DNA of 46,997 nucleotides from positions 1 through 46,997 of the forward strand of contig JAFTYF010000022.1 in assembly GCA_017461395.1 (NCBI GenBank), written 5' to 3'. Made by a program: the position numbers and the translations under genes. The DNA is from Ruminococcus sp. (GTDB lineage Bacteria > Bacillota > Clostridia > Oscillospirales > Ruminococcaceae). Below the pieces are notes generated by a model. It had not been told where the DNA came from. It searched no databases and saw nothing but the letters and a program-made list of their open reading frames with translations. Of the stretch, positions 7,089 through 11,177 are shown one piece after another (positions within the stretch are counted from its first letter, which is position 1; the number at the start of each line of letters is the position of its first letter).

Positions 7089-7371
7089 AATATCGAAAAT
7101 GCGATGAAGGGAAATAAAGCCTGTAGAATTTTTACAGAGAGCTGTCGGCGGTGAAAGACAGCAAAACGAAGCAGGTCATAGCTCCTCCCTGAGCATCCGG
7201 CTGAAAACCGCTCTGCGGACATTAGGCTTGGACGGTTTCTCCCGTTACAGAGATATGCGTTAATCCGACGCAGATGAGCGGGCGCTTTGCGCCAAGAAGA
7301 GTGGTACCACGGAGTATCTCAGTTTGTAACTTCGTCTCTTTCATACCTTAGTGTATGAAAGAGACTTTTTT
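7089..7371 (+). ncRNA. T-box leader sensing uncharged tRNA-Leu
   Basis: T-box leaders bind a cognate uncharged tRNA and then favour an antiterminator over a terminator. The conserved T-box AGAGTGGTACCACGG lies at 7298-7312; its TGGT matches the ACCA end of a tRNA with discriminator A. Stem I begins soon after the start site, and its specifier loop appears to present CTC at 7182-7184 (within CATAGCTCCTCCCTGAG), a Leu codon that agrees with the downstream leuA. The terminator is a perfect 13-bp stem, 7334-7346 with 7353-7365, followed by six T. The T-box and terminator are certain; the specifier position is read by eye. Confidence 0.93.
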
Positions 7372-7410: not shown

Positions 7411-9075
7411 ATGAAAAACGTAAACAAGTACACCCGCCAGTTCTTTGAAGCTCCGGCAACACAGATGAAATGGACAAAAAAATCATGTATCGAAAAGGCT
7501 CCCATGTGGTGCAGCGTCGATCTGAGAGACGGAAATCAGGCCCTTATCATCCCTATGAGTCTCGGCGAAAAGCTTGAATTCTTCAACAAGCTCGTTGAAA
7601 TAGGCTTCAAGGAAATTGAAATCGGTTTTCCTGCCGCATCCGAAACAGAATACGACTTCTGCCGTACACTTATCGAGCAGAATATGATCCCCGATGACGT
7701 TACAATTCAGGTGCTCACTCAGTCAAGGGAACACATAATCCACAAGACCTTCGAGGCTCTCAAGGGCTGCAAGAATGCTATCGTTCATCTCTATAATTCG
7801 ACCTCTCTCGCTCAGCGTGAACAGGTTTTCTGCAAAAGCCGTGAGGAAATCATCGACATAGCCGTGACAGGCGCAAGGCTCTGCAAAGAATACCGTGAAA
7901 AATACGAGGGCAACTTCCGTTTTGAATATTCTCCTGAAAGCTTCACCGGCACTGAACCGGAATTCGCTCTGGAAGTATGCAACGCTGTCCTCGATATATG
8001 GCAGCCTACCACCGATGACAAAGCAATCATCAATCTGCCGGTAACTGTTCAGCTCTCAATGCCGCACGTTTATGCAAATCAGGTTGAATATATGTGCGAC
8101 AACCTCAGATACAGAGAAAACGTTATCGTATCGCTCCACCCCCACAACGACAGAGGATGCGCTGTTGCTGATACTGAAATGGGACTTCTCGCCGGTGCTG
8201 ACCGTGTTGAGGGAACTCTCTTCGGAAACGGCGAAAGAACAGGAAACGTCGATATAATCACGCTGGCTATGAATATGTACTCTCAGGGCGTTGATCCGGA
8301 GCTCGATTTCTCAGATATTCCGTCAATTACAGAGCTTTACACAAAGGTCACACGAATGGAAGTCCATGAACGCTCACCCTATTCCGGAAAGCTCGTTTTT
8401 GCGGCGTTCAGCGGCTCTCATCAGGATGCTATCGCAAAGGGCATGAAGTGGCGTGAGGACGGAAGATCCGAACACTGGACAGTTCCTTATCTTCCGATTG
8501 ATCCGGAGGATGTCGGCAGGGAATACTCCGCAGATGTTATCAGAATCAACAGTCAGTCCGGCAAAGGCGGCATAGGCTACATCCTCGAAACACGCTTCGG
8601 ATATAATCTTCCCAAGAAAATGCGTGAGACTCTCGGATACATGGTCAAGAGCGTATCCGACCACAAGCACAAGGAACTTCTCCCTGACGAGGTGTACCAG
8701 ATATTCAAGACGAATTTTGTGGATATCACCGAACCGCTTAAGGTTACAAAAACAAGATACGTCCAGTGCAATGGCATTGAAGCAACCGTAAGTCTTGAAT
8801 TCAACGGCAGAGTTGCTTCCGCCACAAACAACGGTAACGGTCGTCTTGACGCCGTCAGCAACGCTATCCGCTCCTATACCGGAATAGATTACAGCATAAA
8901 TACCTACACCGAGCACGCTCTTGAAGTAGGTTCGGCTTCAAAGGCTGTTTCTTATGTCGAAATTATCGGCGAAAACGGCGCAAGCTTCTGGGGAACAGGT
9001 ATTGATACCGATATCGTGGAATCCTCTATCAAGGCTCTCGTAAGCGCTGTAAACAATATGTTCAAAGACGAGTGA
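7411..9075 (+). CDS. leuA: 2-isopropylmalate synthase (type 2)
   Basis: LeuA condenses 2-oxoisovalerate with acetyl-CoA, the first committed step to leucine. The 554-aa product fits the longer LeuA type-2 family. It shows the DRE-TIM metallolyase signature 'DLRDGNQAL' (residues 38-46), the metal-binding HxH in 'SLHPHNDRG', and a C-terminal LeuA regulatory (allosteric) domain after about residue 420, where leucine usually exerts feedback inhibition. GGAGG at 7398-7402 precedes the ATG. Expression is under the Leu T-box just upstream. No clear terminator separates it from the next leader, but that leader has its own promoter. Confidence 0.96.
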   Translation: MKNVNKYTRQFFEAPATQMKWTKKSCIEKAPMWCSVDLRDGNQALIIPMSLGEKLEFFNKLVEIGFKEIEIGFPAASETEYDFCRTLIEQNMIPDDVTIQVLTQSREHIIHKTFEALKGCKNAIVHLYNSTSLAQREQVFCKSREEIIDIAVTGARLCKEYREKYEGNFRFEYSPESFTGTEPEFALEVCNAVLDIWQPTTDDKAIINLPVTVQLSMPHVYANQVEYMCDNLRYRENVIVSLHPHNDRGCAVADTEMGLLAGADRVEGTLFGNGERTGNVDIITLAMNMYSQGVDPELDFSDIPSITELYTKVTRMEVHERSPYSGKLVFAAFSGSHQDAIAKGMKWREDGRSEHWTVPYLPIDPEDVGREYSADVIRINSQSGKGGIGYILETRFGYNLPKKMRETLGYMVKSVSDHKHKELLPDEVYQIFKTNFVDITEPLKVTKTRYVQCNGIEATVSLEFNGRVASATNNGNGRLDAVSNAIRSYTGIDYSINTYTEHALEVGSASKAVSYVEIIGENGASFWGTGIDTDIVESSIKALVSAVNNMFKDE

Positions 9076-9134: not shown

Positions 9135-9163
9135 TTGATTTTATTGACCGAAGGTGCTATAAT
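9135..9163 (+). promoter_or_regulatory. Promoter of the ilvB operon
   Basis: TTGATT (9135-9140), 17 bases, TATAAT (9158-9163). It lies about 40 bases before the leader peptide start. A second TTGACC at 9144 is too close to serve as a -35 element. Confidence 0.75.
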
Positions 9164-9205
9164 TTAAATAAGAATATTCAAAGTCTGAGCAAAGGAGCAT
9201 TAATA

Positions 9206-9310
9206 ATGAGATCAGCCGTTATTTTTTCCGGTATAGTCATTATTAACAGCGCAGTCATTACAGTTTCCGACTGCCGCTTCAGTTCATTCTGCCCGCAGGA
9301 CTTTGAGTAA
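9206..9310 (+). CDS. ilv operon leader peptide, 34 aa
   Basis: An ATG at 9206 follows AAAGGAG (9191-9197) and opens a 34-codon frame ending in TAA at 9308-9310. Of its first 20 residues nine are Val or Ile (V5, I6, I10, V11, I12, I13, V17, I18, V20), while Leu is absent from the whole peptide. The rest is Ser, Cys and Phe rich. It lies between the operon promoter and a terminator that precedes ilvB, as in classical attenuators such as those of ilv operons in Proteobacteria. The peptide itself probably has no function after synthesis; its translation would be the sensor for Ile-tRNA and Val-tRNA supply. Confidence 0.85.
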   Translation: MRSAVIFSGIVIINSAVITVSDCRFSSFCPQDFE

Positions 9311-9386
9311 TATTTGCCGGTACACAGCAGATGTACCTGTGCAGTGTCGCTTGAATTAAACCTCCGGCAGTCTGTCGGAGGTTTTT
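9251..9386 (+). promoter_or_regulatory. Transcription attenuator before ilvB
   Basis: Four segments give mutually exclusive structures. Segment 1, GCAGTC (9251-9256), carries the Val17 codon. Segment 2, GACTGCCG (9269-9276), can pair with segment 1 over 6 bp or with segment 3, CGGCAGTC (9365-9372), over 8 bp. Segment 3 overlaps the 5' arm of the terminator: 9358-9369 pairs with 9373-9384 (one G-U pair), followed by TTTTTA. A ribosome stalled on the Ile/Val codons would cover segment 1, let 2:3 form and stop termination. A hairpin GGTACA/TGTACC (9319-9337) lies between segments 2 and 3. Confidence 0.82.
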
Positions 9387-9440
9387 ATATTATAAATCAG
9401 GATGCACCGCCATTCTGAATGTAAAGGATGAAACTCTATC

Positions 9441-11177
9441 ATGTTTATCTCAGGTGCTAAAATTATTGTTGAAACTCTCATCGAACAGGGCTGTGACACC
9501 GTTTTCGGTTATCCGGGAGGTCAGGTTCTCAATATTTTCGATGAACTTTACCTCAACAGCGACCGTATAAACCATGTCCTCGCTGCCCATGAACAGGGTG
9601 CGGCTCATGCGGCTGACGGCTATGCAAGAGCTACAGGAAAGGTCGGCGTTGTTATCGCAACATCAGGTCCCGGCGCAACTAATCTCGTTACCGGAATCGC
9701 AACAGCTTATCTTGATTCTGTCCCTATGGTCGCTATTACCGGAAATGTTCCGTGCGATCTCATCGGCAGAGACAGCTTTCAGGAAGTTGATATCGTGGGC
9801 GTAACTATGCCTATCACAAAGCATAACTTCATCGTTAAGGATATAAACGATCTTGCAGATACTATCCGTATGGCTTTCAAAATCGCTAAATCAGGACGTC
9901 CCGGTCCTGTTGTTGTGGATATTCCAAAGGATGTCCAGATAGGAAAATGCGAGTTTGAAGCTCAGGCTCAGCCTGTGATCCCTTATCCCGTCATTTTTGC
10001 TGACGACAATCAGCTTAAAAAGGCTGCTGAAATGATAGAAGCCGCTGAAAGACCTTACATATACTTCGGCGGAGGTGTTATCAGCGGCAGAGCTTCCGCA
10101 GAGGTTATGGCTCTTGCTGAAAAAATCGACGCTCCTATGGGCTGCACTCTTATGGGACTTTCCGCTGTTCCTTATGACAACCCGCGTTTCCTCGGAATGC
10201 AGGGTATGCATGGTCACTTTGCTTCCTCAATGGCTCAGGATGAATCTGACCTCGTTATAGCTCTCGGTGCAAGATTCAGCGACAGAGCTACAGGAAACAA
10301 GGCTCGCTTCAACAAGAATTTCAGAATTATACATATAGATATAGACGGCGCTGAGCTTCACAAGAATATTCCGGCTGATCTTTCGATAAATGCCGATATC
10401 AGAGACGCTGTTGAAAGACTCTGCGCCCTCGTGAATGAACAGAAGCGTCCTCAGTGGAGCGCCCGTATCGCTGAGCTTAAGGCTGAGGAAGAACGCCGCA
10501 TCGAAGGCGCAAGAGAATGTACTTTCCAGAAAGACTGCTCAAATTGTACAAATCCGTGCAGCAATACCGGTATTCCGGCAAAGAACAGACTTAATCCGTA
10601 TGATATCATTGATATCGTAAGCTCCTGTGCCGGCGACGCAGTTGTTGCTACTGACGTAGGTCAGCATCAGATGTGGGCGGCTCAGCGTTATCCCCTTAAA
10701 ACACCAAGAACCTTCCTTACAAGCGGCGGTCTCGGTACTATGGGATACGGTCTCGGCGCAGCTATAGGTGCCGCTGCCGCTACAGGAAAATATTCCCTCC
10801 TCTTTACAGGCGACGGAAGCTTTGGCATGAATCTCAATGAACTTGCAACCTCCGTTTCTCAGGGACTCCCCGTCGTTATCGTTATCATGAACAACGGCGT
10901 TCTCGGAATGGTTCGTCAGTGGCAGACGCTTTTCTACGGAAAGCATTACTCCAATACCACTCTTAACCGTCAGACCGACTTTGTAAAGCTTGCAGAAGCA
11001 TTCGGCGCAAAGGGTGTCAGAGTTTCCACAAAGGAAGAACTCGAAAAGGCAGCAGCAGAGGCTTTCTCTTACGGCGGAACTTTCCTCATCGACTGTCTCG
11101 TGGACTGCAATGAATTCGTTCTTCCTATGCTTCCTCCCGGCGGTTCTATCGACGATATTATTACAGAGATCAAGTGA
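9441..11177 (+). CDS. ilvB: Acetolactate synthase large (catalytic) subunit
   Basis: IlvB joins two pyruvates to acetolactate, or pyruvate and 2-oxobutanoate to acetohydroxybutanoate, using thiamine diphosphate, FAD and Mg2+. The 578-aa product has the catalytic Glu region 'AAHEQGAAHAADGYARATG', the FAD-binding middle domain, and the ThDP motif 'GDGSFGMNLNELATS' with 'VIMNNGVLGMVRQWQ'. An insertion before the third domain carries four Cys (C360, C366, C369, C373; 'CTFQKDCSNCTNPC'), which I do not know from the standard enzyme. Control is by the leader-peptide attenuator just upstream. ilvN follows after 10 bases. Confidence 0.95.
   Translation: MFISGAKIIVETLIEQGCDTVFGYPGGQVLNIFDELYLNSDRINHVLAAHEQGAAHAADGYARATGKVGVVIATSGPGATNLVTGIATAYLDSVPMVAITGNVPCDLIGRDSFQEVDIVGVTMPITKHNFIVKDINDLADTIRMAFKIAKSGRPGPVVVDIPKDVQIGKCEFEAQAQPVIPYPVIFADDNQLKKAAEMIEAAERPYIYFGGGVISGRASAEVMALAEKIDAPMGCTLMGLSAVPYDNPRFLGMQGMHGHFASSMAQDESDLVIALGARFSDRATGNKARFNKNFRIIHIDIDGAELHKNIPADLSINADIRDAVERLCALVNEQKRPQWSARIAELKAEEERRIEGARECTFQKDCSNCTNPCSNTGIPAKNRLNPYDIIDIVSSCAGDAVVATDVGQHQMWAAQRYPLKTPRTFLTSGGLGTMGYGLGAAIGAAAATGKYSLLFTGDGSFGMNLNELATSVSQGLPVVIVIMNNGVLGMVRQWQTLFYGKHYSNTTLNRQTDFVKLAEAFGAKGVRVSTKEELEKAAAEAFSYGGTFLIDCLVDCNEFVLPMLPPGGSIDDIITEIK

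Follow-up and report, generated by a model that had tools for sequence, protein, structure and literature searches.

The ilvB operon of this Ruminococcus species is very probably governed by a ribosome-mediated transcription attenuator that would sense the supply of isoleucine and valine, judging from its sequence and from comparison with related genomes. The window, by which we mean the whole stretch of 46,997 nucleotides analyzed here, is the contig of a 2.08-Mb draft genome that carries the ilvB leader. Downstream of ilvB, it encodes ilvN, ilvC, ilvD, leuC, leuD, and leuB on the same strand, each scoring above the cut-off of its NCBIfam model, and by their NCBIfam names the genes of this operon make the amino acids that the leader would sense. 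A sequence-only reading of the window had proposed a ribosome-stalling leader peptide attenuator before ilvB in a clostridium, and this proposal is well supported by the comparisons presented below. The parts of the locus are listed in Table 1.

Table 1. Features of the leuA-ilvB region, in window coordinates
Feature	Position	Strand	Remarks
leuA T-box leader	7095..7342	+	Rfam RF00230, 98.8 bits versus gathering cut-off 93; not part of the attenuator
leuA (2-isopropylmalate synthase), upstream gene	7411..9075	+	NCBIfam NF002991, 796.8 bits, cut-off 455
Promoter-like site TTGATT-17-TATAAT	9135..9163	+	10/12 match, TG before the -10
Leader peptide ribosome-binding site AAAGGAG	9191..9197	+	
Leader peptide ORF (34 aa; residues 5-20 include nine Ile/Val)	9206..9310	+	Profile match in 76/125 genus genomes
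Segment 1, GCAGUC, contains the Val17 codon GTC	9251..9256	+	Pairs with 9269-9274; hairpin covaries
Segment 1', GACUGCCG, 3' arm of hairpin 1	9269..9276	+	8 bp with 9365-9372
Segment 2 (genus-wide antiterminator), AUUCUGCC, encoding Ser-Phe-Cys-Pro	9286..9293	+	
Stop-codon hairpin, bracketed by 2:3	9302..9355	+	Predicted fold
Segment 3, CGGCAGUC, terminator 5' arm and loop, common to antiterminator and terminator	9365..9372	+	
Intrinsic terminator 3:4	9358..9384	+	12 pairs; tail TTATATTATA; covariation over 54 leaders
ilvB (biosynthetic acetolactate synthase large subunit)	9441..11177	+	NCBIfam TIGR00118, 689.1 bits, cut-off 538.35

The leader ORF translates to MRSAVIFSGIVIINSAVITVSDCRFSSFCPQDFE followed by a stop codon, with Val or Ile at residues 5, 6, 10, 11, 12, 13, 17, 18, and 20 and no Leu, in keeping with the sequence-only reading. 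The binomial probability of at least nine Ile/Val in 19 residues against the local background was 6e-4, a value uncorrected for the number of candidate ORFs. The same bias was found across the leaders of the genus: residues 2-24 of 60 distinct leader ORFs contained 21% Ile, 16% Val, and 2.8% Leu, compared to a background of 7.8, 6.5, and 7.5%, respectively, in eight genes of the window. A T-box before ilvB was rejected, since the only match at Rfam gathering level in the window is the T-box of leuA, at whose specifier position we read CUC, a Leu codon, in the Rfam alignment, and since none was found among the 12 weak Rfam matches at 9160-9440. The reading had also advised comparison with the ilv leader motifs of Rfam; this comparison placed the leader in no family, as no leader family of Rfam 15 reached its gathering cut-off and membership of the best one, His_leader (RF00514), was rejected at 26.1 bits versus 49.

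Because leuA is the gene immediately upstream and has the same orientation, the terminator might merely end the leuA transcript, the short ORF being unrelated or a product of chance. We consider this very improbable. The promoter-like match at 9135-9163 is admittedly not significant alone (one found versus 1.6 in shuffles), but this site and a ribosome-binding site sit between leuA and the terminator, and leuA, where it was recognized upstream of a leader (28/65), ends 308-607 nt before ilvB. Moreover, peptide, antiterminator, and terminator occur together across the genus, and the leader covaries with the terminator loop. A similar promoter pattern was found anywhere in the fetched upstream region for 41 of the 65 leader-bearing and 13 of the 30 leaderless regions. 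The attenuator unit probably starts earlier than 9206, at the promoter-like site.

All three pairings named in the sequence-only reading exist in the window, and segment 1 does hold the Val17 codon. Hairpin 1 joins GCAGUC (9251-9256) to GACUGC (9269-9274) by 6 bp, GACUGCCG (9269-9276) can pair with CGGCAGUC (9365-9372) over 8 bp, and 3:4 forms the terminator. The region 9200-9395 folds with a z score of -4.36, none of 200 shuffles being as good, and only 2 of 200 codon shuffles of the leader matched the strength of its helix with the terminator arm. Nevertheless, it is conservation in the genus, rather than such single-sequence odds, that is decisive for the reality of the device.

To assess conservation, we collected the regions upstream of ilvB from genomes of the genus. 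While a DNA search with the leader matched 38 of 100 genomes, its own included, ilvB was present in 96, yielding 95 usable upstream regions (G005 gave none, and a second ilvB-like match in G090 was left out). An Ile/Val peptide with a hairpin and T-rich tail was found in 63 of the 95, the hairpin lying 12-72 nt past the leader stop codon in 63/63, these hairpins being the best candidates with a T-rich tail from a finder run with no null control. One further region (L124) is partly masked, with the peptide present in its genome, and another (L105) appeared by eye to be decayed, with a terminator and no peptide start. The remaining 30 have neither peptide nor terminator device; 26 of these were read by eye over the last 330 nt and four (L109, L112, L113, and L117) were classified by pattern alone. 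None of the 30 leaderless genomes had a match to the peptide profile. Among their upstream regions, ilvB lies 34-36 nt behind leuA in four, and leuA was recognized within the fetched stretch in 20.

Searching 125 genus genomes with a profile built from 40 peptides gave matches in 76 of them, and in 43 of the 68 of good quality, with one match per genome except for G075, which has a weak second one; these 76 are a lower bound, as seven of the 63 known leaders (those of G002, G013, G037, G047, G054, G057, and G083) go undetected. The search was extended to 297 genomes of the family, of which five matched, four belonging to the same genus and one being false (L210), and to 197 genomes of the order, where the three matches were the own genome, the same false L210, and L211/L254, whose surroundings do not resemble a leader. 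These samples contain some genus genomes, and for certain genomes of the family sample scoring covered a fraction of the candidates (e.g., 26/33). Hence no credible match was seen outside the genus among the 297 family-sample and 197 order-sample genomes, although a divergent leader could escape the profile given the seven known ones that it misses. A named carrier of the device is Ruminococcus sp. AS06rmzACSIP_302 (L126).

In 14 of 19 further genus loci, a 2:3 helix of at least 7 bp was found; some of these are near copies of leaders already aligned (L217, L230, L244, L247, and L250 closely resemble members of the alignment A2 described below), and the count excludes L248, where the wrong terminator was picked, while the stretch cut for L215 was not the leader. 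In L243, the peptide and a complementary loop are readable in the sequence and were missed by a narrow ribosome-binding site pattern. Two loci, L100 (G096) and L246 (G591), carry a TGA stop codon right behind the Ile/Val block, ahead of segment 2, and keep the terminator; 2:3 was absent or weak in the stretch tested. Another four, L120, L121, L122, and L123 (G083, G057, G054, and G047), have divergent Ile/Val leaders with a terminator and without the genus antiterminator register. Homologs that keep the terminator while lacking the peptide run or the 2:3 pairing, which the sequence-only reading had held to speak against it, were therefore found, but they are rare (L105; L100 and L246; L120-L123).

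Covariation was analyzed on alignment A2, comprising 54 of the 62 distinct leaders (the alignment A1 contained 40 of the 62). A2 excludes the near copies L041, L059, and L067, as well as L090 and the divergent L120-L123, and its figures accordingly hold for the main class of leaders; the 500 shuffles used as controls ignore relatedness. The terminator was paired in 93.5% of cells versus 87.1% in shuffles, with 19 two-sided cells versus 3.3 (0/500). The genus-wide antiterminator, AUUCUGCC:GGCAGAAU, was paired in 93.4% versus 90.2%, with 14 two-sided cells versus 2.3 (0/500), and controls in which its register was slid dropped to 35-63%. Its variants include CUGUGCCC:GGGCGCAG, ACUCUGCC:GGCAGAGU, GUUCUGUC:GACAGAAU, and GUUCUGCC:GGCAGAAC. 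Hairpin 1 was likewise paired in 93.2% versus 89.6%, with 18 two-sided cells versus 6.6 (0/500); its number of pairs with two-sided change was reached in 23/500 shuffles. Further pair types were no more numerous than in shuffles for either 2:3 (77/500) or hairpin 1 (84/500). Taken individually, 34 of 63 leaders exceeded 95% of their codon shuffles.

A scan of all column pairs ranked the terminator first, with 46 two-sided cells over 11 bp, followed by a 9-bp antiterminator with 14 two-sided cells, level with two shorter and less often paired helices. Importantly, 2:3 and 3:4 both covary and have columns 231-233 in common, making them mutually exclusive; column 232 pairs with column 146 in the antiterminator and with column 244 in the terminator, and six sequences carry A there with U at both partners. 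The persistence of the Ile/Val run and of 2:3 pairing in related genomes, which the sequence-only reading had put forward as a check, is thus borne out, with covariation, in the main class. Other predicted helices fared differently over the leaders. The genus version of the stop-codon hairpin, UUGCUU:AAGCAA, was paired in 74.4% of cells without covariation, the helix AUAAUGA:UCAUUAU between the start codon and the Ile codons was unsupported (192/500 shuffles as high), and a helix between the ribosome-binding site region and UUGCUU had weak support (85.6% versus 81.9%, 1/500; 14 two-sided cells versus 7.0, 0/500). In the window, a predicted 10-bp helix (9200-9209:9237-9246) joins the start-codon region and the Ile/Val codons; it is common in the genus and shows no covariation.

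Conservation of the peptide reaches beyond Ile/Val to the residues SDC and SFCP, and might be taken to indicate that the short ORF encodes a functional small hydrophobic protein, the RNA pairing being secondary. This we find scarcely credible, as the SDC codons form the 3' arm of hairpin 1, such an ORF is absent from 30 of the 95 ilvB upstream regions, and segment 2 is read in another frame in 8 of the 54 leaders with its complementarity kept. In six of these eight (L048, L070, L072, L073, L079, and L082), the core UUCUGCC is retained, and in L046 and L047 both sides of the helix are altered. Since these eight leaders retain complementarity in another frame, SFCP is conserved as RNA.

Some of the codons themselves are nearly fixed. 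Val17 (9254-9256; columns 108-110 of A2) is GTC in 54/54 leaders, compared to 36 of 225 Val codons in eight genes of the window. Ile12 is ATT in 50 of the 51 leaders having Ile at this position, and codon 10 is ATC in 20 and ATA in 16. All tRNA-Val genes seen, in the own genome, among similar genes in eight genomes, and in G028, have a UAC anticodon; these are drafts, and when the own genome and G028 were scanned for all tRNAs, tRNA-Ile was likewise not found, so that a GAC tRNA is possible. The fixed GTC at Val17, which lies within segment 1, may also be set by the RNA pairing itself.

From this arrangement, the following course of events can be proposed. If charged tRNA-Ile or tRNA-Val ran short, the ribosome would stall at codons 10-20. 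Segment 2 (and, in the clade of the window, also segment 1') would then remain free and pair with segment 3 ahead of the synthesis of segment 4, allowing RNA polymerase to read through into ilvB. With a good supply, the ribosome would reach the stop codon, where its footprint would cover segment 2 and break the stop-codon hairpin; segment 3 would be left free, and 3:4 would terminate transcription. By analogy with the trp and his attenuators, hairpin 1 is probably a polymerase pause site that synchronizes ribosome and polymerase.

We then folded the 54 leaders under different ribosome positions. For transcripts truncated ahead of segment 4, 2:3 formed with a mean probability of 0.75 when no ribosome was present; a ribosome at Ile13 or Val17 gave 0.67 or 0.66, respectively, and one at the stop codon gave 0.24. 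In complete transcripts, the terminator was preferred in all four states (0.82-0.89), and the choice must therefore be kinetic. The contrast between stalled and stop states held for footprints reaching 18-21 nt upstream (0.21-0.32 at the stop codon) and shrank for footprints of 12-15 nt (about 0.74 stalled versus 0.43-0.50 at the stop codon). The antiterminator stayed likely with a ribosome at the stop codon in 13 of the 54 leaders, and in several leaders 34-55 nt separate the start of segment 2 from the ORF end. In the window, folding predicted the stop-codon hairpin (9302-9355) for the full transcript, for the ribosome-free state, and for the Ile13 stall; it was not predicted when the ribosome was stalled at Val17 or had reached the stop codon.

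The layout is not quite that of trp, because in most members hairpin 1 and the antiterminator have no nucleotides in common, and, unlike in the trp model, 2:3 is predicted even without ribosome. On both counts, the term "textbook" applied to the device in the sequence-only reading does not fit the genus. Sharing of a segment by hairpin 1:2 and the antiterminator is possible in the clade of the window (9269-9276) and absent from the genus-wide layout, whose antiterminator segment lies about 17 nt downstream of the one originally called segment 2, our segment 1'. This latter segment is also a partner of segment 3 in the clade. The original assignment thus holds in part: the 8-bp helix is the stronger one in the five genomes of this clade, while the genus uses AUUCUGCC:GGCAGAAU instead.

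The full 8-bp GACUGCCG:CGGCAGUC helix was found in L031-L035, a group of five formed by the window and the four genomes nearest to it; their terminator loop is GGCAGUC or GGCAGUU instead of GGCAGAA. These five retain 5 bp of the genus register (in the window, CUGCC 9289-9293:GGCAG 9366-9370), with -6.8 kcal/mol versus -11.3 to -13.4 kcal/mol for the 8-bp helix. Over the 54 leaders, the latter has no support (64.3% paired versus 64.9% in shuffles). It is special to this clade, where it may well be the working antiterminator. A further step would be to suppose that the window works by a trp-like scheme, in which 1:2 (GCAGUC:GACUGC) competes with 2:3 (GACUGCCG:CGGCAGUC), a possibility that we regard as real but doubtful. 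Besides its greater strength in L031-L035, the 8-bp helix was dominant in both stall states tested in L033, L034, and L035, and in the window with a stall at Val17 (0.73). Yet the window takes the conserved register (0.99-1.0) in the Ile13-stalled and ribosome-free states, L032 favors it in both stall states, the 8-bp helix lacks support over the 54 leaders, and the five genomes are too closely related for covariation to decide.

For the attenuator as a whole, a more specific reading combines three propositions, and it is rather unlikely that all of them hold jointly. First, the device would be rewired, with its antiterminator segment inside the leader ORF and apart from hairpin 1, such that an untranslated leader would read through rather than be super-attenuated. 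Second, stalling would be set by the near-fixed GTC codons, which would have to be read by a tRNA-Val with a UAC anticodon. Third, a change in the terminator loop would have moved the antiterminator partner of the clade to the 3' arm of hairpin 1.

The type of device is known, and the Ruminococcus ilvB leader is not yet catalogued in Rfam. No report of it was found among the matches listed in the open-licence PMC literature. The sequence-only reading gave a dated picture in placing such attenuators mainly in Proteobacteria and Actinobacteria, as ilv leaders of Listeria and Staphylococcus aureus and His leaders of bacilli and Eubacteriales have been published. In Listeria monocytogenes, Rli60 is a ribosome-mediated attenuator upstream of ilvD (PMC5864092). 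It shares with the Ruminococcus leader a peptide with branched-chain amino acid codons, a 2:3 antiterminator, a 3:4 terminator, an ilv-leu operon, and a host among the Firmicutes, the two being likened by description, but its peptide has 13 aa and precedes ilvD instead of 34 aa preceding ilvB (PMC5864092). Furthermore, mutants of the Rli60 ribosome-binding site or start codon are super-attenuators (PMC5864092), whereas folding predicts no such effect in Ruminococcus.

In S. aureus, ilvD has a leader peptide where Bacillus subtilis has a Leu T-box, with Ile codons as here; this peptide is Leu-rich and responds to Leu, and its antiterminator pairs with the poly-U tail, unlike in Ruminococcus (PMC5794164). 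The same paper cites predictions of branched-chain amino acid leader peptides in Lactococcus and Streptococcus (PMC5794164). His leader peptides replace T-boxes in bacilli and also occur among some Eubacteriales and Erysipelotrichales; they are likewise regular leader peptides of Firmicutes standing in for T-boxes or a repressor, but for another amino acid and other genes (PMC2965389, PMC9413887). The trp and his attenuators of Escherichia coli (PMC1183508) combine a pause hairpin, regulatory codons, an antiterminator, and a terminator as here, and the extra hairpin of his between pause hairpin and terminator resembles that of Ruminococcus. Unlike in both, the conserved antiterminator segment of Ruminococcus is part of the ORF but not of hairpin 1. 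Finally, the Corynebacterium ilvBNC attenuator and the ilvB-II motif, likened here by description, also place an ilvB operon under control of an upstream ORF, in Actinobacteria (PMC10272879, PMC11857589).

T-boxes are found near ilvB in some relatives. In three Ruminococcus records (L126, L128, and L129), a T-box ends 1.9-2.2 kb before ilvB, and in 3 of the 19 related loci submitted to Rfam, out of 80 fetched, a T-box lies directly before ilvB (L135, L138, and L141); motif-based detection over the 80 loci was crude and missed all three of the latter. Unrelated short ORFs rich in branched-chain residues, with a ribosome-binding site, precede ilvB in other clostridia (L149:2780-3003, Oribacterium sinus; L147:2750-3003; L131:2750-3003), and by eye terminator-like hairpins also lie upstream of ilvB in these three loci, which suggests a repeated origin of ilvB leader peptides. 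In a Lentisphaerae MAG (SUVU01000076.1; L151:2520-3003), two tandem Ile/Val-rich leader-like ORFs were noticed by eye before an ilvB relative, each followed by a terminator-like hairpin and a T run, possibly a double attenuator in another phylum.

In the window, two RNA sensors may split the pathway between them, leuA being controlled by a Leu T-box and ilvB by an Ile/Val peptide. The leader described here represents a genus-wide, covariation-backed leader peptide attenuator for branched-chain amino acids in the class Clostridia, where some relatives use a T-box, and its family, missing from Rfam, could be added there. About 80 natural variants (63 + 19 loci), the partner switch and losses included, are at hand for the study of how attenuators change and, if true, the partner switch would show one attenuator layout evolving into another.
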